A stretch of 64,000 nucleotides of DNA from Chloroflexota bacterium. GTDB taxonomy: Bacteria; Chloroflexota; Anaerolineae; Anaerolineales; Villigracilaceae. Shown here piece after piece: positions 1-11,489 of this stretch. The stretch lies in NCBI GenBank assembly GCA_013388855.1, contig JACAEM010000033.1, forward strand, positions 1 through 64,000. The letters are read 5' to 3'. A program made the translations under genes and the position numbers. The notes beneath the pieces are model-generated. The model saw nothing but the letters and a program-made list of their open reading frames with translations, was not told the origin of the DNA and did not search any database. Every line of letters starts with the position of its first letter. The first letter of the stretch is position 1.

Positions 1-402
1 CACCGCATCCGTATTCAGGATCAGGCGGTCGTAGGCGATGACCTTCACACCAGCGGCATGAGCCGCTTCAGCGGCGGCGGCGGCGGCAGCGCCATCCTGC
101 GGGGTCAGGATGAGAACCTTGATACCCTTGGTAATCAGCGCTTCGACGTTGGCTTTTTCCTTGGCGGAATCACCCTGGCTGAAGAGAATCTCGACATTGT
201 AGCCAGCGGCGGTAAAGGCATCTTTGAAGCGGGTCTCGTCCTGGATCCAGCGCGGCTCATCTTTCGTCGGAAGGACGATACCCACGGAACCGGATACTGT
301 CGGCGCGCTGGGTGTCTCGGTCGCGGCGGGACCACAAGCTGACAGGATCATGGTAACCGCAACAAGCAATGCAAGCAGGCTGTATAAAGCTTTCTTGGAC
401 AT
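1..402 (-). CDS. Sugar-type ABC transporter substrate-binding lipoprotein (5' part only)
   Basis: The first 134 codons are present and the gene runs off the left edge. The product starts with a lipoprotein signal peptide (hydrophobic residues 5-20, lipobox LSAC with Cys23), so it should be anchored outside the membrane. The following VGIVLPTKDEPRW, then a segment ending LILTPQDG and VKVIAYDRLI, is the first lobe of a type I periplasmic binding protein of the ChvE/XylF/RbsB kind, which bind monosaccharides. A strong Shine-Dalgarno (AAGGAG) precedes the ATG at 402. It lies downstream of, and on the same strand as, the ABC-ATPase/kinase fusion gene at 875-2545, so it is a plausible target or partner of that system. 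The exact sugar cannot be told. Confidence 0.85.
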   Translation of the reverse strand, partial: MSKKALYSLLALLVAVTMILSACGPAATETPSAPTVSGSVGIVLPTKDEPRWIQDETRFKDAFTAAGYNVEILFSQGDSAKEKANVEALITKGIKVLILTPQDGAAAAAAAEAAHAAGVKVIAYDRLILNTDAV

Positions 403-874
403 ATTTTCTTCTCCTTGTTATTTTTCTTTTCAGTTTCAAACGTGACAATCAGGGAATGTGACCTTTAAACACCTCCTTTCAAAGATATAAGAATAAAAAA
501 GCGAAGCCGCCCGTCATTGATAAACGGAACGCGCTTCGCTTTGGGTAAATCGAAATCCAACTGCTGACAATTTTGACTTATAGGTTTCATGAACCGACAC
601 CACGATTGAGGAAAATGAATACCTGCATAGCAGGCTGATTGGCATCCTTCAACTTTCAGGTCGTTCGTACTTTATCAGGTTATGTCAGACGGCGCATTAT
701 AAAAATGCCACCAAATCAATCCAGAAATACCCAAGATTGGCTTGGTTTCACTTTTATTTTATTTTTTTTGTTGCAGTTGTAAACCGTCTGATTATCAACT
801 TATGCTGATTTATCCCCCAATTGGGTAAGGGGAAATCCCCCAATTTCACAAAAAACCTGAAAAATCATCATCAT
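403..874 (-). promoter_or_regulatory. 472-bp intergenic region / long leader of the binding-protein gene
   Basis: No credible gene is seen here. On the minus strand it holds a hairpin with T-tract (498-542), an AGGAGGTGTTT motif (467-477) about 65 nt upstream of the binding-protein ATG, and the functional AAGGAG just before the ATG. The part from 700 to 850 is AT-rich with homopolymer T runs and probably contains the promoter, but no clear -10/-35 pair was settled on. Confidence 0.4.
491..542 (-). terminator. Intrinsic terminator or attenuator hairpin
   Basis: AAAGCGAAG (498-506) pairs with CTTCGCTTT (534-542), with an inner CCGT/ACGG pairing. Read on the minus strand the stem is followed by TTTTTTATTC. 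It lies 330 nt past the kinase-fusion stop and about 95 nt before the binding-protein start. It could therefore terminate the former or attenuate the latter. Confidence 0.6.
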
Positions 875-2545
875 TCATGAAACAATTGGATAAGGGCTGG
901 GAATCTCTACCTGCAGGATCATCCCCCCACCCTTGGACGACTCGATGCTCATCACGCCGCCCAACAAAGCCACCCGCTCGCTGATGCCGACCAACCCGAA
1001 ATGTTTGTTGACAGAGAGCGATGCCAGGTCCGCCGGGACGGAAAGTCCCTGCCCGTCATCCTCCAGACGAACAAGCAGGCTGGCAGACGGGGTACGTTGC
1101 AGCGAAAGCCGCACATGCTTCGCAAATGAATGCTTGCGAATATTGCTCAACCCCTCTTGCACAATGCGAAATACCGAAAGCTCTATCGTTTCAGGCAGAC
1201 GCCCCAAAGCGGGGTCGATCTCCAGTTGAACATGAATATTGCTCCGAGTTGCCCATTCATGCGCGAGGGAATCGATGGCAGCAGAAAGTCCATGATGATC
1301 GATCGTGGGTGGACGCAAATCGCTGCAAATCTGCCTCAACTCGCTTACAACGTTTCGGATACCCTGGCGAACCGACTCCACCTCTTCCTGCACGGGAGGG
1401 TCCGCCACATTGCCTTCGATCTCTTCCAACCGATAATTGAAACTCAACAGATCCTGGATGACCTGATCGTGGAGTTCACGCGCCAATGCCTTCCGCTCGT
1501 CTTCACGTTCGGTGATCAGGCGGCGTTGGGTGGCTTGCAATGCCGCAGTCAACTGTCCGAGAGCGCCGATTTGATCCTTGAGCCGCTCGAGCAATTGCCG
1601 GTTCAGGGAGGTGCGCGCATCGAGGCTTTCCTGCAGAGTTGCCTGTATCCGGCGCAGTTCCTCCGCCTGTTGCTGGGCAGTGTGATAACTTTCCAGCGCC
1701 CAGATCAAGGGCGTTACCTGTTCCTGCCGCGACGATCCCACGATTAACTCAACGATTTCCTTCGGGACCGCCTCTGATGTGGGACGATCCGCCACAAGCC
1801 TGCCCTCGTACAGTACAAGAATGCGGTCCGTTACCGTGAACAGGTGTGTCAGGTCGTCGCTGCTGATGATCACGGAAGTACCCTGCGCGGCAAGCCGCTT
1901 GATCTTCTCCATTAATATCTTTTGCCGTTCAAAACTCAGGATCGGAATGATATCGTCCAACAACAAAAGACGACAAGGCTTATAAAAGGCACGCGCCACT
2001 GTCAGTAATTGCCTTTGTTCATCCGAAAGATTGCGAACCTGCTCATGGATCAGACTGGGCGGGAGGTTGGACTCCTCCAGCAGGCGAATGGCGGTACGGG
2101 TCATTTGATCCCAATGGATAAGACCAAGTTTCGAAAAGCGGGTCACTTCGCGTCCCAACATAATGTTTTCGACAACATTGAAGTGCTCCACCAGTCCGGA
2201 GGTACGCCGCGTCGTCTCCTTTCCGACATCCCTGTCGAACAGGAAGCCAAAACTGACGTTGAACTGATCGATGGGGCTGGAGATCTGATACACGGTTTCT
2301 ATCCCCAGTTTTTGCGCCTGGGAGCGACTCGCCAGCCGTTGCGGGACGCCATCCACATAAATGGTACCGGACGAAGGCGGGATCACGCCGTTCAACAAAT
2401 GAAAAAGGGTGGATTTCCCCGCCCCCTGGCGACCCACCAAACCCAAAATTTCGCCGCGCGAAATCGAAAAAGTGACATCCTTCAAAACAGGCAGGCGGTC
2501 AAAATTCTTCGACAAATTTTCAACACGCAAAAAAGGGACGGACAT
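875..2545 (-). CDS. Fusion of a sugar-ABC-type ATPase domain with a HisKA_3 histidine kinase
   Basis: The protein is 556 aa. Residues 1-270 are an ABC ATPase domain of the RbsA/XylG/MglA type: Walker A GRQGAGKST (38-46) and Q-loop Gln87. The signature is eroded to LSDEQ (173-177), Walker B ends in DD rather than DE (197-198), and the H-loop reads IISSDD with no His, like the C-terminal half of sugar ATPases. A roughly 35-residue insertion follows the Q-loop. Residues 285-345 are a predicted coiled coil. Residues 350-375 carry the dimerisation/H-box ARELHDQ (His359) of the NarL-type kinase family. Residues 450-550 are the HATPase domain (N-box around Asn468, DDGQG, GLVGISER). There are no membrane spans. 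I infer a cytoplasmic kinase that senses nucleotide or transporter state, perhaps by docking on a sugar permease. It is divergent from the response regulator at 2648. Confidence 0.88.
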   Translation of the reverse strand: MSVPFLRVENLSKNFDRLPVLKDVTFSISRGEILGLVGRQGAGKSTLFHLLNGVIPPSSGTIYVDGVPQRLASRSQAQKLGIETVYQISSPIDQFNVSFGFLFDRDVGKETTRRTSGLVEHFNVVENIMLGREVTRFSKLGLIHWDQMTRTAIRLLEESNLPPSLIHEQVRNLSDEQRQLLTVARAFYKPCRLLLLDDIIPILSFERQKILMEKIKRLAAQGTSVIISSDDLTHLFTVTDRILVLYEGRLVADRPTSEAVPKEIVELIVGSSRQEQVTPLIWALESYHTAQQQAEELRRIQATLQESLDARTSLNRQLLERLKDQIGALGQLTAALQATQRRLITEREDERKALARELHDQVIQDLLSFNYRLEEIEGNVADPPVQEEVESVRQGIRNVVSELRQICSDLRPPTIDHHGLSAAIDSLAHEWATRSNIHVQLEIDPALGRLPETIELSVFRIVQEGLSNIRKHSFAKHVRLSLQRTPSASLLVRLEDDGQGLSVPADLASLSVNKHFGLVGISERVALLGGVMSIESSKGGGMILQVEIPSPYPIVS

Positions 2546-2612
2546 GCAACGATTTTAACCCGGTTTTCAAGAAGGAATAAAACAATTCAAGGAACTGCAA
2601 GCATCGGATGGT

Positions 2613-2641
2613 TTGTCAGTTATCGTGTCTTACGGCATAAT
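2613..2641 (+). promoter_or_regulatory. Sigma70-type promoter of the response regulator; predicted leaderless transcript
   Basis: TTGTCA (2613-2618), a 17-bp spacer and CATAAT (2636-2641). Only six bases separate the -10 from the ATG at 2648, so transcription would start at or next to the start codon. No Shine-Dalgarno is present at the right distance. Confidence 0.6.
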
Positions 2642-2647
2642 AGCCGC

Positions 2648-3703
2648 ATGATGCCCACACAGGTTCTGCTTGCAGACGACCACACCGTTGTACGGGCTGG
2701 TTTGCGCAACGCGTTGGATGGATTACCAGAGATCGAAATCATTGGCGAAGTGGGGAATGGAAGGGAACTGATGGAGACGTTAGCCGGGTCCCATGTCGAT
2801 CTTCTCGTCATGGATGCCAATATGCCCGATTTCGAGCCCATTTCAGCCGTCAGGGAAATCAAGGCAAAATATTCCAATCTGAAAATCCTGATTGTCAGCG
2901 CCTACGCCGACGAAACCTACGTGGTGGGACTGCTCAAGGCAGGCGTGGACGGCTATCACCTGAAAGATCAGCCGCTTGCCGACCTCCGCCTGGCAATAAA
3001 AAGAATCTTGAGCGGCGAACGCTGGATTACCAGTTCACTCCTAAGCCACCTGACCAATTCTGAAGCTCCTCATCCACACTCAACAAAACTCCCATCGCTC
3101 ACCCGCAGACAGCGCGAATTGCTTCGTCTCCTCACTCAGGGAGCCGACAATCGTACCATTGCCGCCGAACTCGATATCAGCGTCAAAACCGTGGAGAACC
3201 ACCTGACCACCCTCTATAGAGTCCTTGGGGTGGACAGCCGGTTGAAGGCAATGAACTATGCCATTCACCATCCCGGAATACTGGCTTCCAACGGGCAGGA
3301 AATGATTGATATGGATGCCGCCGTCCGCGGTGAGGACAGTTTGACCATCCTCGTGGTGGATGACAACCCCCGATACCGGCATCAACTCTGTCACTTAATC
3401 GGAAAGATCACGCCCACCTCGGTCATTTATGAAGCAGATAACACGGCGGAGGCATTGCGCATCGCTGAAAAAGCCCAGCCTCATCTGGGATTGATCGACG
3501 TTGTGCTGGAGGATGAGGACGGCATCAAATGTGCGAGCCGGTTAAAGAGCGTTTCCCCATCCACCCGCATGGTACTCATCAGCGCCTACCCCGACCGCGA
3601 ATTTCACAGGCGGGCGCTTTCAGCAGGAGCTGTCGCGTTTTTGGATAAAAAGGATTTGGATACCGCCTCGCTCCGGCAGGTGGTGGAAGACGCCCTCAGA
3701 TAG
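2648..3703 (+). CDS. Response regulator with receiver - LuxR HTH - receiver layout
   Basis: The protein is 351 aa from ATG 2648; a second ATG follows at 2651. Receiver 1 (residues 4-122) has the acidic pair DD (10-11), phospho-acceptor Asp56 in VMDANMP and Lys106. A LuxR/NarL-type HTH (about 150-205) has the typical LTRRQRELLRLL and SVKTVENHL segments. A second complete receiver follows (231-351) with ILVVDDN, Asp284 in LIDVVLEDEDG and Lys333/334. A C-terminal extra receiver after a NarL-type HTH is unusual. It is divergent from the ABC-ATPase/kinase fusion, whose kinase core is of the family that normally pairs with NarL-type regulators, so they are very likely cognate. The reading frame is open further upstream, but that part is antisense to the kinase gene. 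Confidence 0.88.
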   Translation: MMPTQVLLADDHTVVRAGLRNALDGLPEIEIIGEVGNGRELMETLAGSHVDLLVMDANMPDFEPISAVREIKAKYSNLKILIVSAYADETYVVGLLKAGVDGYHLKDQPLADLRLAIKRILSGERWITSSLLSHLTNSEAPHPHSTKLPSLTRRQRELLRLLTQGADNRTIAAELDISVKTVENHLTTLYRVLGVDSRLKAMNYAIHHPGILASNGQEMIDMDAAVRGEDSLTILVVDDNPRYRHQLCHLIGKITPTSVIYEADNTAEALRIAEKAQPHLGLIDVVLEDEDGIKCASRLKSVSPSTRMVLISAYPDREFHRRALSAGAVAFLDKKDLDTASLRQVVEDALR

Positions 3704-4982
3704 CAAACAGGAAGATCAGATCGTTGACGTTCGTACCCGTTGGACCGCTTTTGATCAAATCGCCCAACGCCTCAAAAAATGGATACGCGTCATTCCGGGA
3801 TAGTGAGCCTGCCGCGTTCATCCCAAGCGACTCTGCCCTCCGGGCCGATTCCCCCGTTACCACCGCGCCCGCCGCGTCGGTCGGGCCGTCATCGCCATCA
3901 GTGGCGAACGAAATCAACATGCAATTTTCCAATCCACCCAGTTCGTCCACCGTGCTTAAAGCCAACTCCTGATTTCGACCGCCTTTACCCCCGCCTTTAA
4001 TCGTCACAGTCGTCTCCCCGCCCGCAATCAAACAGAATGGACGTGACCGCCTGACCGCTTCGCCGCGCAGCCTCTTTGCCAGCATCGCGCCGATATCGCG
4101 TGCCTCCCCTTGCAATTCGTTGGTCAATATCTCGACATGAAAGCCCTCGCGCCCCGCCTGTTCCAACGCGGCTTGCGCGGCAAGTTTATTATCGCCAATG
4201 ATGATGTTTTGCACATTTTGGAATCGAGAAATTCGTTTATAGTCATCCGCCAACAAACGGCCGGACTCCAGGACCTGGAGAATGGAAGCTGGAACTTGTT
4301 TTTCCAAGCCATATTTCTTCAAAACCGCCATCGCGTCTTCTCGCGTCGTCGGGTCGGGCACGGTGGGACCGGAGGCAATTGCTTCCAATGGATTCCCGAT
4401 CACATCAGAAAGAATCAAGCTGACGATCTTTGCTTTCGTGGCTCCTGCCAATCCCCCGCCTTTGATCCGGTCAAGCTGCCGCCGGAGGGTGTTGATTTCT
4501 TCAATGCGCGCGCCGCAGGCAAGCAATTCGCGGGTAAGTGACTGCATGTCGTCGAGGGTGACGCCTTTGTGCGGCGCGGTCACCAAAGCGGAACCGCCGC
4601 CGGAGATTAGGCAAACCAGCGTATCCTCTTCATGCAAAGAGGAAACAAATTCCAGGACACGTTCGCCTGCACTTACCGAGCGCACATCAGGGATGGGATG
4701 TCCGCCTTCAATGACGGCGAACAGGTTCCGGCTTCGCGAAGAGGCGTGCTTGCAGACGGCGAGACCGTCGATGAGGGGAATCCGCCCGGCGAGGGCATCC
4801 ATCATTGGGATCGCGGCTTTCCCAATCCCCAATCCAAATACGCGGCCAGTCAGTCCGGGCAGATGCGTTTGCACCGCCTTGTGGGGATCCACGGCATCGA
4901 TGGCGGCGGCAAGGATGCGCAAAATACGCGGGTCGCGCAGGCTGTGGGTCGCGAAACGATTTACATCCATTTCTGTTATCAT
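3696..4982 (-). CDS. Glycerate 2-kinase (MOFRL/DUF4147 family)
   Basis: The protein is 428 aa. It should phosphorylate D-glycerate to 2-phosphoglycerate in the cytoplasm. The N-terminal DUF4147 region shows GLGIGKAAIPM, the GGGSAL loop and the LSDVIGNPLEAIASGPT segment. The C-terminal MOFRL region shows GGETTVTIKGGGKGGRNQE and ATDGDDGPTDAAGAVV. Length and motif order match the family. Its last codons overlap the convergent response regulator by 8 bp (3696-3703). Its start lies 25 bp from the divergent dehydrogenase at 5008, which would make or use the same metabolite, so the two form a hydroxypyruvate/glycerate module. Confidence 0.9.
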   Translation of the reverse strand: MITEMDVNRFATHSLRDPRILRILAAAIDAVDPHKAVQTHLPGLTGRVFGLGIGKAAIPMMDALAGRIPLIDGLAVCKHASSRSRNLFAVIEGGHPIPDVRSVSAGERVLEFVSSLHEEDTLVCLISGGGSALVTAPHKGVTLDDMQSLTRELLACGARIEEINTLRRQLDRIKGGGLAGATKAKIVSLILSDVIGNPLEAIASGPTVPDPTTREDAMAVLKKYGLEKQVPASILQVLESGRLLADDYKRISRFQNVQNIIIGDNKLAAQAALEQAGREGFHVEILTNELQGEARDIGAMLAKRLRGEAVRRSRPFCLIAGGETTVTIKGGGKGGRNQELALSTVDELGGLENCMLISFATDGDDGPTDAAGAVVTGESARRAESLGMNAAGSLSRNDAYPFFEALGDLIKSGPTGTNVNDLIFLFAI

Positions 4983-5007
4983 ATCAGAAGATTTTCATGG
5001 AGATCGT

Positions 5008-5985
5008 ATGACGAAGCCAAAAGTATTTGTGACTCGAATCATTCCCGATAAAGGACTCGACATGGTCAGGGAGTTTTGCGATGTGGATCTGTGGACGGAA
5101 GAACTTCCGCCCAGCCGCGAGGAATTGCTCAGGCGTGTGCAAGGCGTGGATGGCATCCTGAGCCTGCTTACCGATTACATCGACGGCGAAGTGATGGACA
5201 CGGCAGGCGAACAATTGAAGGTCATCAGCAATCATGCGGTGGGCTTCGATAATATCGACATTCATGCCGCCACGGCGCGCAAAATCCCTGTGGGCAACAC
5301 ACCCGATGTGCTCACCGACGCCACCGCCGATTTTGCGTTCACATTGATGATGAGCGCCGGGCGCCGGATTCTGGAAGCAGATCGCTACGTGCGTGAGGGC
5401 AAGTGGAAAACATGGAGTCCGATGTTGTTGCTTGGCACCGAGATGAGAGGTTCCACGCTGGGGTTGGTGGGTTTTGGCCGCATCGGCAAGGCAATGGCGC
5501 GCCGCGCGGTGGGATTCGACATGCGCGTGATCTACTATGATCCCGGGGAATCGAAGCCGGATCCCGATATCAAAGCGTCACGCGTGGATTTCGAATCGAT
5601 CCTCGAGGAATCGGATTTTATCTCGCTTCACACCCCGCTGACGCCTGATACGCGCCACCTGATCGACTCGGAAGCCCTGTCGAAGATGAAGCCCACCGCT
5701 GTGCTGGTGAATACCTCGCGCGGTCCGGTCGTGGATTTGGACGCGCTGTACGACGCGTTGAAGGAAAAACGCATCTTCGCTGCCGGATTGGACGTGACCG
5801 AACCCGAACCACTGCCCACCGATCATCCCTTGCTTACATTGGACAACGTGGTCGTGATGCCACACATCGCCAGCGCCAGCAAAGTGGCACGCGATAAAAT
5901 GTCCTGGATGGCGGCAAAGAATCTGATCTCCGGTTTGAAGGGAGATCATCTACCGAACTGTGTAAATCCCCAAGTATATAAATAA
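5008..5985 (+). CDS. D-2-hydroxyacid dehydrogenase, probably glyoxylate/hydroxypyruvate reductase (glycerate dehydrogenase)
   Basis: The protein is 325 aa from ATG 5008, preceded by GGAG. The longer open frame upstream is only antisense to the kinase. It carries the NAD(P)-binding GFGRIG motif (about residue 153-158), the catalytic Arg in NTSRGP, the Glu in DVTEPEPL and the His in PHIASAS. This is the standard Arg-Glu-His set of the family. The order and length fit enzymes that reduce glyoxylate or hydroxypyruvate to glycolate or D-glycerate. Pairing with the divergent glycerate 2-kinase supports hydroxypyruvate/glycerate as substrate. Its promoter must lie within the first codons of the kinase gene, because only 25 bp separate the two starts. 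Confidence 0.88.
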   Translation: MTKPKVFVTRIIPDKGLDMVREFCDVDLWTEELPPSREELLRRVQGVDGILSLLTDYIDGEVMDTAGEQLKVISNHAVGFDNIDIHAATARKIPVGNTPDVLTDATADFAFTLMMSAGRRILEADRYVREGKWKTWSPMLLLGTEMRGSTLGLVGFGRIGKAMARRAVGFDMRVIYYDPGESKPDPDIKASRVDFESILEESDFISLHTPLTPDTRHLIDSEALSKMKPTAVLVNTSRGPVVDLDALYDALKEKRIFAAGLDVTEPEPLPTDHPLLTLDNVVVMPHIASASKVARDKMSWMAAKNLISGLKGDHLPNCVNPQVYK

Positions 5986-6015
5986 TAGACGTTATCGGAC
6001 ATAATCGGCAGACAT

Positions 6016-6181: not shown

Positions 6182-9100
6182 TCAAGGCAGTGTCACATTC
6201 CCACCGCCAAAGTCATCGAAGAAGGCATTCGTGGAATTGATGAACCAGAGACCGATGTAACCGCCCCGGGTATTGAAGAATGCCTGGTCCGCGGCGTTCA
6301 AGGTCACGCGTCCCACTTCGACGCCATTCTTGAAGATCACCACATTTCCGTTTGCCAGCGCCTGCGCGCCAAGTTCGTCGCCGTTATTGAAGGTGACCGG
6401 GATGGCGGAATAAGCATACCACTGCAATGTGGATGGGAGGAACGTTTCAACCGTCACATTGTCCGTGACAGCGTTATAGTGCACTTCGATGGCGCCCGAG
6501 CCCCAGTTGGGCAGGAATCCGCCCTGGACTTTCAACAGCAGATTCTGTTCCAGTCCCGCCGAGTCCACCGTGGTCAGTATTACGCTGGCTTCCTGGTTGA
6601 TTCCAAAGTAATTTCTCCAGTAGATGGGTCCGCTGCCGCGAACATCAACCCGATTGCCAACGATGCGATACACATTCGCCCCAACCGAGCCTCTCCAATT
6701 CGCGCCAAGAGCGGCGCTGGGACGGTTGAAGTTATCCAGAATGGAGGTCACATTCTTGACGACGATAACCGCTGCGTACAGGCTGCTGCCATCATCTTTG
6801 TCCATGACCTTGCCAGTCACAGTGTAGGTACCGTTGAAGGGGAAGGTGCAGGTGAAGGAAGGATCCGTTCCACTATTGGCGTAATCCGCCGAAACCAGCG
6901 AACCGCCGTTGCAGTCGAAGGCATAGTGGAAGCCCGCCGCCGTATCGGCATCCGAAGGGTCGAATGCACCGCTGAAGGAGATGACAAAGGATTCGCCTTC
7001 GCTCACCATGGCAGGAGCTGTAAAGATGGCAGTAGGAGCCGTATTGGCTACCTCAACGGTGGCGCCAGCGACAGCGGAAAGACCTCCGGGATCGGTCACT
7101 TTCACGCTGACGGGGAGGGTATCGGGTCCATCCATTGAACCGACCACGAAGGCAACCGATTGACCGGGGGTTTCGAATGAGCCGTTGTTGTCCAGATCCC
7201 AGGCATAGGTGAGGCTGTCGCCGTTCGGGTCGAAGCCGGTTGCGGTGAGGATGACCGAAGAGCCTTCTTCCGCTGGATAGGGTCCGCCGGCATCCACGGT
7301 CGGCGGGGCGTTCAAATTCAGCCCGATAACGACCGGGTCGTGGTCAGAGGTGCGGAATTCGTTCGGTTCGTAAAGCGGAAGCACATCCGATTCTTCCTCG
7401 AACGCAGCTTCGTCGGCAGTGCGTTCGTCGTCGTTGTAGTCAAAGAGCGGGATTTCGTCGGCGTTGATGTGCCACTCTGCCACGCCAGCCACTTGAGGCG
7501 CCAGGCTGGAATTAGCCAGTGCATGGTCGAGGTAACCCAGTTGTCCGTCGAAAACGTAGCCGTAGGCATCGGGTCCGCCAAATGCCGCCACCATATCGGT
7601 ATAACCGGCATTCTGGAGGGCGACAATCGGGTCTTCCTTGGCATAGGAGTTCAGGTCGCCGATGATTAGCACGTCTGAGTCTCCGCTGCCGGTCGGGTCG
7701 GTCGCCAGCCAGTTGGCAAGTTCCTGGGCGGCCAGGGTGCGGGTCAGGTTGCAGTTCCCCTGACCGGTGGTGGTATCGTCATCGCCAACACCGCAGCTCG
7801 AGCCCTTGCTCTTAAGATGGTTGACCACGACAGTGAAGCGCGCACCAGTGGAAATTTCTTCAAATGCCTGCGCTACCGCCGGGCGGTTGCGGTCTACATC
7901 CGCATTACGCGGGTTGACGAATGCTTGTGTGTCGAGGACGGCATAGTTACCGACCGGTGCGACTGTGGAGGTCTTGTAAATGATCCCGACGCGGATGGCA
8001 TCGGTGCCAATCACACCCGTATCCACATAGGCATAGCCCGGCAAACCGGCGACAATGTCGGCCAGTGGTTCGACGCCGGGGGTATTCTCCATTTCCATGA
8101 AGCCGAAGACATCGGCGTCAAGGGCGGAGAGCGCCGCGAGCATCTTGGTGCGCTGGCGTTCCAGTTCCTGGGCGCTATCGGCGCCGCGGCAGTCTTGATT
8201 CTGAGTTGGAGCACAAGTATTGCTGGTGTCGATGGTCAGGAAGTAATTGAGGACATTGAAACTGGCGACCTTGATTCGGCCATCCACCTCAGGCATGGGT
8301 GCACGCGGGTTGACCTGGGTAAAGGCATAGGAGTATGCCTCGGTCACCGGGCGGATACGCCAGGCATCGGTCCCAGTCTGACCGGCGAAGGACCAGTGCA
8401 GGACGCCGGTGAGGTTCGTGATTGTGTCTCCGCCGCGGAAGAAGTTACTCGTGCTAAGTCCCGGAACGGGGTGGTAGTACGCCGTGTTCGGTGTGTCGAC
8501 CGGGCGGTTCTGACGGTTATCGGTATCATCGAGAATGATCGTGCGACTTGCCAGGTTGATCTCATTATCAATGAACCCGGCTGCCGACGGTGTGTTAACT
8601 GCTGTGAATGTATGCGGGCGTCCGCCTTCGGTAAGGACCACCTGTCCATAACGAGCCAGTTCGAAGTACTCGCTGATCGATAAAGTATCGGGGAAGGTAA
8701 CCAGCATACCTTCGAATGCTTCGAAATAGGCATTAATGACGGTGGTTGCCGCGGTCAAGTCTCCGCTGGGCACGCCAGGCACAGGTAATTCGACCGTTGC
8801 AGGCGTGGGCAGAGGGTTGCCCGAACTGAGTACGCTGACGCTGCCAGCGGTGGAGGCAGTAAGCTGGGTCATGTTGAAGAATTCGCTGGAGGCGCCGGTC
8901 ACTCGCACCTTGTCCCCCACGTTCACAGGTGTGGGGCAACTGCTGCAGAAGATGAAGATACCCTCGGAAGTAGCCGGATTGGCATCGACATCCGCATCTT
9001 CCTCCTGCAGGAAGAATCCGCGCAATTGACCGGAACCCTGCGTCTGATAGTCACCCACCACAATCGCCTCAACGGTGAACGTGCCGGGATTGGATGTATT

Positions 9101-11296
9101 GCCGCTGCCCTGAATATCGTGGATGAATGTAATCGCGGCATCATCGTTGACAATAGTCCCCTGACCCTGCCCATCGGCGACGGTTGCACCTGTTACATTG
9201 ATGACGTTGACAAAGAAAGTTTCGTCGGGTTCGTTGGTCGGATCTCCGTTGACAAGCACATCGAACGTATAGGTGGAATTGCCTTCGGGAATGGTCTGAC
9301 CCGTCAACGACTTCGCGGTGAAGTCGCTTGGCGAAGCGGCCGTATTATCAGCGGTGGCGATGTCAAATGTCACTCCACCTGCTCCTGCCGCCACGGAAAG
9401 GCCAACGGTAAATGAGAACGTAGTCGTACCGCTGTCGCCCTCCGCCAGGGAGACATCATTGATGGTAAGTTGAGGCAGGGCGGCTGTGCAGTCATTGGCA
9501 GCGCCCGGGGTGATACCTGCCAAGGTGAAGTCAACATTGTTGACATTGGTATCAGCGCCATCCAGACACCGTGAAATACCCTCTGTTCCTGCAGCAGTGT
9601 CCACCAACCCCTCGCCGGAGCCCTCGGTGTAGGGCGCTCCGGTGTTGCCTTCATAACTGACCGCATCCATCAAATCGCCGTTGAACCGCAAGCCGACCGC
9701 ATCAGGCGCGCCATTCTGGATGAAATCCGTATCTGGGCTGGCATCCAGGTCGCAGTTCGCGACGGTGGTCGCGTTGGCACAGACCACGAAATAATCGCCA
9801 GCCGCCAAGCTCACAGCGGGAAGGGTGATCGTGTTGTAAAGTGCCGCGCCGCCGCCAGTGCCATTGACCAACTCAAGAGTCCAGCCGTCGAGCGAGACAG
9901 CAGAAGAACCGTAATTCTTGATCTCAATGAATTCGGCCGTATCGGTGCTGGGTTGATCATAGTCCACTTCATTGATAACCAGTTGAGGCGGGGGAGGAAG
10001 CACAACCTGATTGAGGGCGCCGGGTGTGTTGTATGCTTCCCCGACGATGGGTGTACCGTCATTGCCGGGTATGCCCGCCAGATCGAAATCGTTGCGGACC
10101 CAGTCGGCAACGGTATCCGTATCGGCTCCATCTGGAACGCGGGAGGCGCCGCCCGGAGCAAAAGGCAAACCATCATAGGAAACGCCCAGGCTGGGTGTAC
10201 CGTAGGTCACATCGCCCGCGCCGCCATCATTGACGGCAACTGAGTCCACAATGGCATCCCAGGGTGAGTTATCGAGCACGCCATCATTATCGGTGTCAAG
10301 ATCGGTATTCAGCGCGCCTGTAAAGTTCTTTACAAGCAGAAGTGAAATCGAACCATTTTCCAGCGCATTTGCCGGCAGGTTTGCCAGGTACAGCCCATTG
10401 GCATCTGTCGTGCCGAGATTGATCACTTCATCAATCGTGCCGACCGAGGTGCCGCTATCCCCTTCGATTTCAAGCGCGGTATAAGCGGAGTAATCCGTAT
10501 TGGCTGCGCCGAAAAATTCCATGTATTCGACATCGGTACCAGCAGTGCTGGCAGAGAATTCATTGATTACCGGAGGCGCAACTTCACTGTCGCCTGTCAC
10601 GACAATATCATCAATTCCGACCCATTCATCATTGCCCACGGCGTTCGCCGTAATGATGCGAACCTGAATCTCCGGCTGGTTTTCAGCCGCCACCGGCAGT
10701 TGTACACTGACCGGCGTAACCAGCGTGGCCAGACTCGGTCCCGTGGTCGCATCGGCGACAAAACCCGCCGGGAGGTTGGTAAAGTCTCCACTCTGCCCGA
10801 CACGGTATTGAAGCGCAACAGGCTGAATGGAATTATCAGCCGAAGCGTCAATATCACGAAGGTTATACGAGACAGTAATGTTCGTGCGCCCCGTAGTGTT
10901 GAAATGCAAAAGGACATAAGGAGCGTCGGCTGTTCCAGAACCTTGTAAGGCGATCGTGGCATCCGTGATTTCAAATTCAGCAACGCCGCCATTGGTAATA
11001 TTGGGGTTGGTCTGATTGGCGATCACGTCCACATCGGTGGCAGATGCGCTGACTCCAAGCAAAGTCTGCGGATCGGTCCCTGTAACGGTTGTGATATCCT
11101 GTCCCAAGAAACCCAGGATTCCCGGCACCCCCGACCAATTATCGTTGGTCGTGATCAGTCCAGTGTTAGCCCAATCCTGGCTGAACGGAAGAGACTGGAC
11201 TGAGTTATCTGCCTGCGCACTCTGCATGGGCAATCCCCCCACCGCCAATGCCAGCACGACAGCCAGTGAAAACGCCTTCGAAAAAGTTTTCGTCAT
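6182..11296 (-). CDS. Very large secreted ExeM/NucH-type endonuclease with lamin-tail, Calx-beta and PKD domains
   Basis: The protein is 1704 aa. ATG 11296 is chosen because GAGGAG precedes it and a signal peptide follows at once (cleavage after AQA, about residue 30). Order by rough residues: lamin-tail-like domains near 244 and 439; a Calx-beta domain 610-717; an OB-fold of ExeM type 720-880; an endonuclease/exonuclease/phosphatase domain 1005-1325 with FNVLNYF, the MEMEN acid, VNHLKSKG, GDLNSY and SDHDPV; two PKD-like domains 1327-1510; and a C-terminal beta-rich domain. It has no LPXTG or membrane anchor, so release is likely. Family members degrade extracellular DNA. A Pho-box array upstream (11490-11533) suggests induction by phosphate starvation, with DNA as phosphate source. 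Confidence 0.92.
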   Translation of the reverse strand: MTKTFSKAFSLAVVLALAVGGLPMQSAQADNSVQSLPFSQDWANTGLITTNDNWSGVPGILGFLGQDITTVTGTDPQTLLGVSASATDVDVIANQTNPNITNGGVAEFEITDATIALQGSGTADAPYVLLHFNTTGRTNITVSYNLRDIDASADNSIQPVALQYRVGQSGDFTNLPAGFVADATTGPSLATLVTPVSVQLPVAAENQPEIQVRIITANAVGNDEWVGIDDIVVTGDSEVAPPVINEFSASTAGTDVEYMEFFGAANTDYSAYTALEIEGDSGTSVGTIDEVINLGTTDANGLYLANLPANALENGSISLLLVKNFTGALNTDLDTDNDGVLDNSPWDAIVDSVAVNDGGAGDVTYGTPSLGVSYDGLPFAPGGASRVPDGADTDTVADWVRNDFDLAGIPGNDGTPIVGEAYNTPGALNQVVLPPPPQLVINEVDYDQPSTDTAEFIEIKNYGSSAVSLDGWTLELVNGTGGGAALYNTITLPAVSLAAGDYFVVCANATTVANCDLDASPDTDFIQNGAPDAVGLRFNGDLMDAVSYEGNTGAPYTEGSGEGLVDTAAGTEGISRCLDGADTNVNNVDFTLAGITPGAANDCTAALPQLTINDVSLAEGDSGTTTFSFTVGLSVAAGAGGVTFDIATADNTAASPSDFTAKSLTGQTIPEGNSTYTFDVLVNGDPTNEPDETFFVNVINVTGATVADGQGQGTIVNDDAAITFIHDIQGSGNTSNPGTFTVEAIVVGDYQTQGSGQLRGFFLQEEDADVDANPATSEGIFIFCSSCPTPVNVGDKVRVTGASSEFFNMTQLTASTAGSVSVLSSGNPLPTPATVELPVPGVPSGDLTAATTVINAYFEAFEGMLVTFPDTLSISEYFELARYGQVVLTEGGRPHTFTAVNTPSAAGFIDNEINLASRTIILDDTDNRQNRPVDTPNTAYYHPVPGLSTSNFFRGGDTITNLTGVLHWSFAGQTGTDAWRIRPVTEAYSYAFTQVNPRAPMPEVDGRIKVASFNVLNYFLTIDTSNTCAPTQNQDCRGADSAQELERQRTKMLAALSALDADVFGFMEMENTPGVEPLADIVAGLPGYAYVDTGVIGTDAIRVGIIYKTSTVAPVGNYAVLDTQAFVNPRNADVDRNRPAVAQAFEEISTGARFTVVVNHLKSKGSSCGVGDDDTTTGQGNCNLTRTLAAQELANWLATDPTGSGDSDVLIIGDLNSYAKEDPIVALQNAGYTDMVAAFGGPDAYGYVFDGQLGYLDHALANSSLAPQVAGVAEWHINADEIPLFDYNDDERTADEAAFEEESDVLPLYEPNEFRTSDHDPVVIGLNLNAPPTVDAGGPYPAEEGSSVILTATGFDPNGDSLTYAWDLDNNGSFETPGQSVAFVVGSMDGPDTLPVSVKVTDPGGLSAVAGATVEVANTAPTAIFTAPAMVSEGESFVISFSGAFDPSDADTAAGFHYAFDCNGGSLVSADYANSGTDPSFTCTFPFNGTYTVTGKVMDKDDGSSLYAAVIVVKNVTSILDNFNRPSAALGANWRGSVGANVYRIVGNRVDVRGSGPIYWRNYFGINQEASVILTTVDSAGLEQNLLLKVQGGFLPNWGSGAIEVHYNAVTDNVTVETFLPSTLQWYAYSAIPVTFNNGDELGAQALANGNVVIFKNGVEVGRVTLNAADQAFFNTRGGYIGLWFINSTNAFFDDFGGGNVTLP

Positions 11297-11489
11297 ATTT
11301 GTTCTCCTCAAACAAAAGACTATATTTGGTTGAATTACGACATTTGCCAAAAACTGGTCTTGCCTTTGAACTGGATCCCGAACACCTCCTCAAACTTTGC
11401 CAGAAGTTTTATGAGTACGAACGAGAAAAGACACCCGCCTGATTCAAACACAAACGATTTTATGTGATGGGAAACAAAAAAACAAGGGA

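Follow-up and report, generated by a model that had tools for sequence, protein, structure and literature searches.

A sugar-transporter-type ATPase domain fused to a histidine kinase in Chloroflexota: a candidate sensor of sugar uptake

Introduction

Can the ATPase of a sugar transporter become the sensory input of a histidine kinase? The question is raised by a stretch of 64,000 nucleotides from a Chloroflexota bacterium (assembly GCA_013388855.1, contig JACAEM010000033.1, positions 1 to 64,000 of the forward strand), hereafter the window. One of its genes (875..2545, minus strand) encodes a protein of 556 residues in which an ATP-binding cassette (ABC) ATPase domain of the sugar-transporter type is joined to a histidine kinase. 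A preliminary description of this locus, made from the letters alone, had proposed that the ATPase-like domain occupies or mimics the ATPase seat of a sugar permease, or senses ATP/ADP, and so reports transport activity to the kinase. Our results suggest that this kinase detects sugar by joining the uptake machinery rather than through a receptor of its own. With a probability of roughly one in two, we consider the fusion to be the sensor half of a sugar-uptake two-component system, whose input is a retired transporter ATPase that takes the place of the ATPase under a sugar permease and signals the loaded binding protein.

Results

A sugar-type ATPase domain and a NarL-class kinase in one protein

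Pfam divided the 556-residue protein into ABC_tran (residues 21-198), HisKA_3 (residues 350-413) and HATPase_c (residues 455-550), all of which exceed the cut-offs. These matches bear out what had been read from the letters, namely a sugar-ABC ATPase, a helical linker and a NarL-class kinase in one protein, with the same motifs (GRQGAGKST, LSDEQ, DD, Ser229 and His359). On the minus strand of the window, the nucleotide-binding domain (NBD; residues 1-270) covers positions 1736..2545 and resembles solved ABC ATPases both by sequence and by an AlphaFold2 model. It is followed by a conserved helical linker (residues 271-345; 1511..1735), which is 73-81% identical to the window's in the six relatives of its clade that were compared and which forms helices, partly of low confidence, in the model. 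The HisKA_3 dimerisation and phosphotransfer domain, with His359 in its H-box by Pfam and alignment, lies at 1307..1498 and the HATPase_c catalytic domain at 896..1183. With both domains and His359 present, and with N and G boxes visible by eye in the alignment, the kinase part fits the HisKA_3 (NarL) class.

The AlphaFold2 model displays an ABC fold linked through long helices to the kinase. It was built on nine sequences and has a mean predicted local distance difference test (pLDDT) of 68 and a predicted template modelling score (pTM) of 0.44, with residues 89-143, and hence the region of an insert discussed below, unreliable; because of these low confidence figures, no argument is built on its fine geometry. 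Hydropathy revealed no membrane helix in the window protein (maximum of 1.49 over 19 residues), and among its 72 relatives one borderline stretch each was seen at loci L083 (1.70) and L090 (1.72). With no such helix seen, the window protein would depend on a partner in the membrane for any signal from the periplasm.

Distribution of the fusion

An assembly join was considered as the source of the fusion and is ruled out by its recurrence. Of 301 genomes of the order, 48 have full relatives (52 rows at an expect value (E) of 1e-45, minus the kinase-only matches in genomes G294, G296, G007 and G137), as do 27 of 400 genomes of a sample of the phylum at E 1e-60, six of the 27 being already counted in the order set. 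Some of these relatives sit on contigs that span 4.7-6.3 Mb, including contigs of 5,258,541, 4,890,986 and 4,684,931 bases. The fusion is real, and its halves are not separate genes joined in assembly, a possibility that the preliminary description had left standing. The same three domains were identified by Pfam in five relatives, HATPase_c of L121 falling slightly below the cut-off, and in a further search for relatives 12 of 22 loci matched part of the protein only.

Because only one of the 11 sampled genomes of the window's genus carries the fusion, the window's own, its distribution is patchy. Beyond Chloroflexota, we did not detect relatives at E 1e-50 among 299, 200 and 148 genomes of three other groups or at E 1e-25 in five single genomes, in searches that were run without a positive control and that would miss NBD-kinase fusions of other origin. 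The combination of the two parts had been called unusual, which holds for their presence in a single polypeptide, but the fusion forms a conserved family of Chloroflexota.

A second, split copy of the fusion (L103:9099-10564, plus strand) is present in the same genome as L087. At L133 (7354-10881, minus strand), the fusion lies inside an open reading frame (ORF) of 1175 residues that is without a Pfam match in its second half and overlaps the ORF of the binding protein, as the outcome of either a frameshift or a genuine extension.

Conservation and origin of the ATPase domain

Motifs were counted on 72 aligned fusion sequences, the window included and the split copy L103 excluded. The window NBD has the Walker A motif (GRQGAGKST, residues 38-46; 2408..2434), which is intact, and the Q-loop of an ABC ATPase. 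It departs from a catalytic NBD in its signature motif, LSDEQ instead of LSGGQ (residues 173-177; 2015..2029), at the end of Walker B, where Asp198 replaces the catalytic Glu (D197-D198; 1952..1957), and in its H-loop, where Ser229 replaces His (1859..1861); all these positions are on the minus strand and were assigned by motif reading and alignment. Across the family, the Walker A Lys (Lys44 in the window) is kept in 68 of the 71 sequences with a residue at that position, the Q-loop Gln in 67 of 71 aligned sequences and the Walker B Asp (Asp197) in 72 of 72. Position 198 still has the catalytic Glu in 32 of 72 fusions; no fusion has the H-loop His, and all 72 have Glu instead of the Gly of LSGGQ at the fourth signature position. 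An acidic residue at this same signature position in CFTR (G551D) blocks ATP-driven gating, which we take as a lead and not as a test. These changes suggest that the altered NBD probably no longer hydrolyses ATP. The phosphoacceptor His (His359 in the window) is kept in 72 of 72 sequences. As a case against its own proposal, the preliminary description had envisaged relatives with canonical motifs, placed in a complete transporter operon and devoid of kinase activity; what we found instead are 72 sequences that all keep the kinase His and all lack the H-loop His.

In transporters, the segment that follows the Q-loop faces the permease. The corresponding segment of the window protein (residues 118-133; 2147..2194, minus strand), on the permease or coupling-helix side of the NBD, follows the pattern L...LDV..NIFLGRE, which the fusions retain in the alignment as do transporter ATPases. 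Three fusions related to one another (L089, L094 and L096) have lost the Walker A lysine (GSGI/VTT) and retain this permease-side segment. The NBD is under purifying selection, with a ratio of nonsynonymous to synonymous substitutions (dN/dS) of 0.04-0.20 in the seven of nine pairs that were not saturated.

GguA, RbsA, XylG and the single-NBD sugar ATPases all possess an NBD homologous to that of the fusion, from which they differ in that the fusion has lost the H-loop His, altered its signature and gained a kinase. From 156 rows, 65 were selected for a tree that included 30 of the 71 kinase NBDs; in it, the kinase NBDs formed a single clade (100/100) that clustered with the single-NBD sugar ATPases as the nearest group (93/89, branch not starred). 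Because the kinase NBDs form one clade beside these single-NBD ATPases, the fusion probably arose once, from a single-NBD sugar ATPase gene. An origin from one half of a tandem GguA was also considered and is not favoured, the kinase NBDs standing apart from both GguA halves in the tree.

A co-inherited response regulator

Divergently from the kinase, the gene at 2651..3703 (plus strand) encodes a response regulator of 350 residues, in which Pfam identified two Response_reg stretches and a GerE domain. The receiver-helix-turn-helix (HTH)-receiver architecture previously described is therefore supported; the first acceptor aspartate, previously numbered Asp56, is residue 55 with a start at 2651, an ATG at 2648 being an alternative start. 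Among the order genomes, which are related to one another such that a Fisher value has descriptive use only, 45 have both fusion and regulator, three the fusion only, three the regulator only and 250 neither; in one of the fusion-only genomes (G261), the contig stops within the regulator gene. Ten more checks were made, nine of them on genomes chosen since no regulator appeared close to the fusion, and the regulator was recovered in nine genomes and missing in G031. The regulator is co-inherited with the fusion. In the neighbourhood counts, any ORF with more than 130 bits to the window's regulator was taken as a regulator, a class that may include others, and leaders, as possible regulator binding sites, were read by eye only.

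Next to the regulator, the window carries a MOFRL/DUF4147 glycerate-kinase-like gene and a divergent ORF that is dehydrogenase-like by eye (3696-5985). A glycerate-kinase-like gene and a dehydrogenase-like ORF also adjoin the regulator at L040 and L041.

Sugar permeases as recurrent neighbours

Gene neighbourhoods were compared across 73 loci, among them the split copy L103. Gene classes were assigned by blastp to proteins of the window or of its own genome and by custom-built profiles, and the arrangement labels in the trees by eye. A binding-protein or permease gene is present within 8 kb of the fusion in 66 of the 73 loci, which is a lower bound given that many contigs are short, and in 30 of the 35 loci having at least 8 kb on both sides. 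In a first arrangement, which is that of the window, the fusion stands before or beside the row binding protein-GguA-GguB. In a second (12 of 73 loci), it comes after a permease with an ATPase gene, which is of the single-NBD type at L065, L075, L079, L080, L118, L128 and L134. In a third (also 12 of 73, namely L063, L066, L068, L073, L083, L087, L090, L127, L129, L133, L136 and L137; Pfam checked on a sample), a permease without an ATPase of its own lies just upstream on the same strand, accompanied by a binding protein in 11 of the 12 loci, and no NBD gene other than the fusion belongs to the cassette. The gap between this cassette and the kinase is at most 52 bases in eight of the twelve and 140-174 bases at L073, L129 and L137, and L133 shows an ambiguous overlap.

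In the kinase tree (71 rows, L099 left out; midpoint root for drawing only), the third arrangement is scattered over several branches and occurs in both main clades, with seven changes, at least five of which are forced by starred branches. Its permeases belong to two separate clades in a quick tree that returned long-branch warnings, from which seven GguB-like permeases were dropped beforehand and in which the permease of L077 is wrongly labelled. Because this arrangement recurs on several branches and with permeases of two clades, the recurrent partner of the fusion is a sugar permease and not one particular permease. Twelve order genomes have the fusion without GguB at E 1e-100. Another permease stands in the row directly upstream in six of them (G016, G030, G050, G064, G084 and G241), the contig is cut in G167 and G275, GguB itself is cut in G279, and none was seen in G009, G036 and G049.

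Two BPD_transp_1 permease genes lie between the binding protein and GguA at L046 (14442-16150), and conserved ORFs of similar size occupy this position at L064, L075 and L104. A second type of sugar transporter may therefore share the operon at such loci. At L130, L131, L132 and L135, no regulator lies within 8 kb; the gene directly upstream is of the radical-SAM CofH/MqnC type by Pfam at L131 and is known by its size only at the other three.

Sugar-uptake genes in the window's own genome

The next gene on the kinase strand had been described as a sugar-binding lipoprotein, and matches to Peripla_BP_4 and to a ChvE model agree with this assignment. It is the N-terminal part (1..402, minus strand) of a ChvE-like protein, incomplete because the contig starts at window base 1. 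In the same genome, the right end of another contig (C19) carries a matching C-terminal part of a binding protein, followed by a GguA-type ATPase and a GguB-type permease; the junction of C19 with the window's contig (C17) is unassembled, and the contig ends do not overlap. At related loci, L042, L045 and L062 among them, the kinase gene is lined up with those for the binding protein, GguA and GguB, so that the window's operon most likely continues onto C19. As would be expected for a CUT2-type importer subunit, the fusion has a binding-protein gene as its neighbour, with the permease gene on another contig. The window's genome has nine BPD_transp_2 places, eight in pairs and GguB as the sole single one; all nine are near ABC ATPase matches, and no orphan permease was detected among them.

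At L045 (12097-14235, plus strand), a single ORF of 712 residues holds the ChvE-like binding protein twice, with two Peripla_BP_4 stretches, and long binding-protein ORFs with doubled matches are also found at L042, L049, L062 and L097. Such a repeat may explain the contig break inside the window's gene. In the leader of the binding-protein gene (window 470-545), a hairpin that resembles a terminator, followed through by a run of T, occurs together with a GAAAGGAGGTG-like stretch, and similar leaders were recognized by eye in the six relatives compared; Rfam gave no match up to E 0.5 in window positions 1-6000. Further along, an ORF of 1722 residues (6182-11350, minus strand) appears by eye to be secreted, with repeats and a nuclease/phosphatase-like part.

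Discussion

A proposed mechanism

How might a retired ATPase report sugar? We infer the dimer geometry, the docking on the permease, the direction of the signal, the phosphotransfer and the target operon as follows. The two NBDs of the kinase dimer, which is the number needed by a permease dimer, would occupy the ATPase seat beneath a CUT2-type sugar permease dimer (BPD_transp_2). Docking of the sugar-loaded binding protein outside would move the coupling helices of the permease, and the NBDs would relay this movement through the conserved linker to the HisKA_3 domain and His359. The kinase would then phosphorylate the receiver-HTH-receiver regulator, which would control the sugar operon. Because the residues for hydrolysis are missing, the NBD pair would hold ATP, scarcely hydrolyse it and follow the movement of the permease rather than drive it, and the assembly would consequently signal and not transport. 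In the window's clade, the partner would be the GguB of its own operon, or the docking may have changed. In a more specific form, which we advance tentatively as somewhat less than an even bet, the system would be an ABC-importer-like receptor composed of binding protein, permease and a kinase NBD replacing the ATPase, with the no-ATPase cassettes signalling without transport and with the window's clade having moved to GguB.

The preliminary proposal of an NBD in the permease's ATPase seat gains from the 12 of 73 cassettes whose permease has no ATPase and from the conserved permease-side segment, and is weaker for the window's own clade. Several observations weigh against the proposal. An insert of 27 residues right behind the Q-loop Gln (residues 88-114; 2204..2284, minus strand; seen in alignments, with low model confidence) is present only in the window and eight relatives from its clade, this clade has no dedicated permease beside the fusion, and the window's own operon most likely includes a complete tandem GguA ATPase. 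Among the loci of the third arrangement, an ORF of 161 residues separates cassette and fusion at L129, the overlap at L133 is ambiguous, and nine of the twelve have another sugar ATPase gene in the fetched neighbourhood, which possibly serves the permease; there is no such gene nearby at L083, and at L066 and L073 the contig stops within a ChvE-like gene. Seven of the 73 loci, two of them on short contigs and five not (L102 and the single group of L130, L131, L132 and L135), have neither a binding-protein nor a permease gene within 8 kb. The fusion is absent from 30 of the 66 order genomes with GguB, so that the transporter does not need it. The constraint on the NBD is looser than that on the kinase part: dN/dS is higher in the NBD in five of seven pairs, and identity to the window is 63-70% for the NBD versus 72-83% for the kinase part in six relatives. 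Finally, the linkage to sugar operons would be compatible, too, with a kinase whose only role is to regulate the operon.

Alternative explanations

Alternatively, the NBD might pair, as a degenerate half, with the genuine ATPase of the transporter, either GguA or a single-NBD sugar ATPase, and sense flux through NBD-NBD contact, in a manner similar to BceS and BceAB. We regard this as unlikely, if the most probable of the alternatives. Several observations favour it: the NBD clusters with single-NBD sugar ATPases, the fusion lies behind a permease with an ATPase gene in the second arrangement, a sugar ATPase gene is found elsewhere in the locus for nine of the 12 no-ATPase cassettes, and GguA is most likely part of the window's operon. 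However, permease cassettes without an ATPase of their own recur, the kinase dimer would already supply two NBDs, and the tandem GguA carries both NBDs in one chain.

It appears rather improbable that the NBD is a leftover dimerisation scaffold in a kinase that senses something else, the linkage to sugar genes reflecting operon regulation only. Purifying selection still acts on the domain, and its Walker A, Q-loop and permease-side segment are conserved. These features speak against a mere scaffold, even though none of the 72 sequences retains the H-loop His, Glu takes the fourth signature position in every one, the NBD changes faster than the kinase part, and L130, L131, L132 and L135 have no transporter genes within 8 kb.

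We give still less credence to the other suggestion of the preliminary description, a sensor that reads ATP/ADP or energy charge without any permease and gates the genes of sugar uptake, because such a sensor would need neither a conserved permease-side segment nor linkage to permease genes and because L089, L094 and L096 keep the domain, with this segment, despite the lost Walker A lysine, although retention of the Walker A Lys (68/71) and Walker B Asp (72/72) without the H-loop His (0/72) makes binding without turnover plausible and five long-flank loci have no transporter genes nearby.

Comparison with known systems

Our preferred reading, an NBD seated in a sugar permease, has precedents in part. 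A transporter ATPase or a sugar-binding protein signals to a regulator in the control of MalT by MalK and in ChvE-VirA sensing; to our knowledge, neither system includes an NBD-kinase fusion. According to PMC7096432, CbrA of Pseudomonas, of the SLC5-STAC-histidine kinase type, joins a transporter part to a histidine kinase within one protein and has a partner regulator. The window protein resembles it in having a transporter-derived part and a kinase in a single chain and a partner regulator, but CbrA fuses the membrane-integral carrier itself whereas the window protein fuses a cytoplasmic ATPase-type domain only, and no membrane helix was seen in it. For the Amt-histidine kinase Ks-Amt5, the review PMC8534201 describes a transporter domain turned receptor that does not translocate efficiently; this domain is an ammonium transporter, whereas that of the window fusion is an ABC NBD. 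The membrane transporter domain that CbrA and the Amt-histidine kinases have in the same chain is thus absent from the window protein.

BceS is a histidine kinase that depends on the ABC transporter BceAB for its activation, as described in PMC8534201 and PMC10314905. BceS and BceAB are separate polypeptides, with a membrane-bound kinase and a transporter of antimicrobial peptides, whereas the window fusion has its NBD within the kinase, in one chain with no membrane helix seen and with sugar importer genes adjoining. No fusion of an ABC NBD and a histidine kinase was found described in the titles and abstract beginnings returned by a targeted search of the open-licence PMC literature. Transporter-coupled sensing is already known, both from kinase-carrier fusions and from kinases with a separate ABC transporter, and the NBD-kinase fusion would be a further form of it.

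Where the ABC importer and the kinase are separate molecules, it is difficult to study how the state of the importer is passed on. If our reading is true, the ATPase seat and the kinase are in one chain, and this coupling would become accessible to point mutations and to swaps of domains. Should the no-ATPase cassettes prove to be real receptors, an entire importer architecture would have been turned to signalling, and this in a phylum of which some members are in culture.

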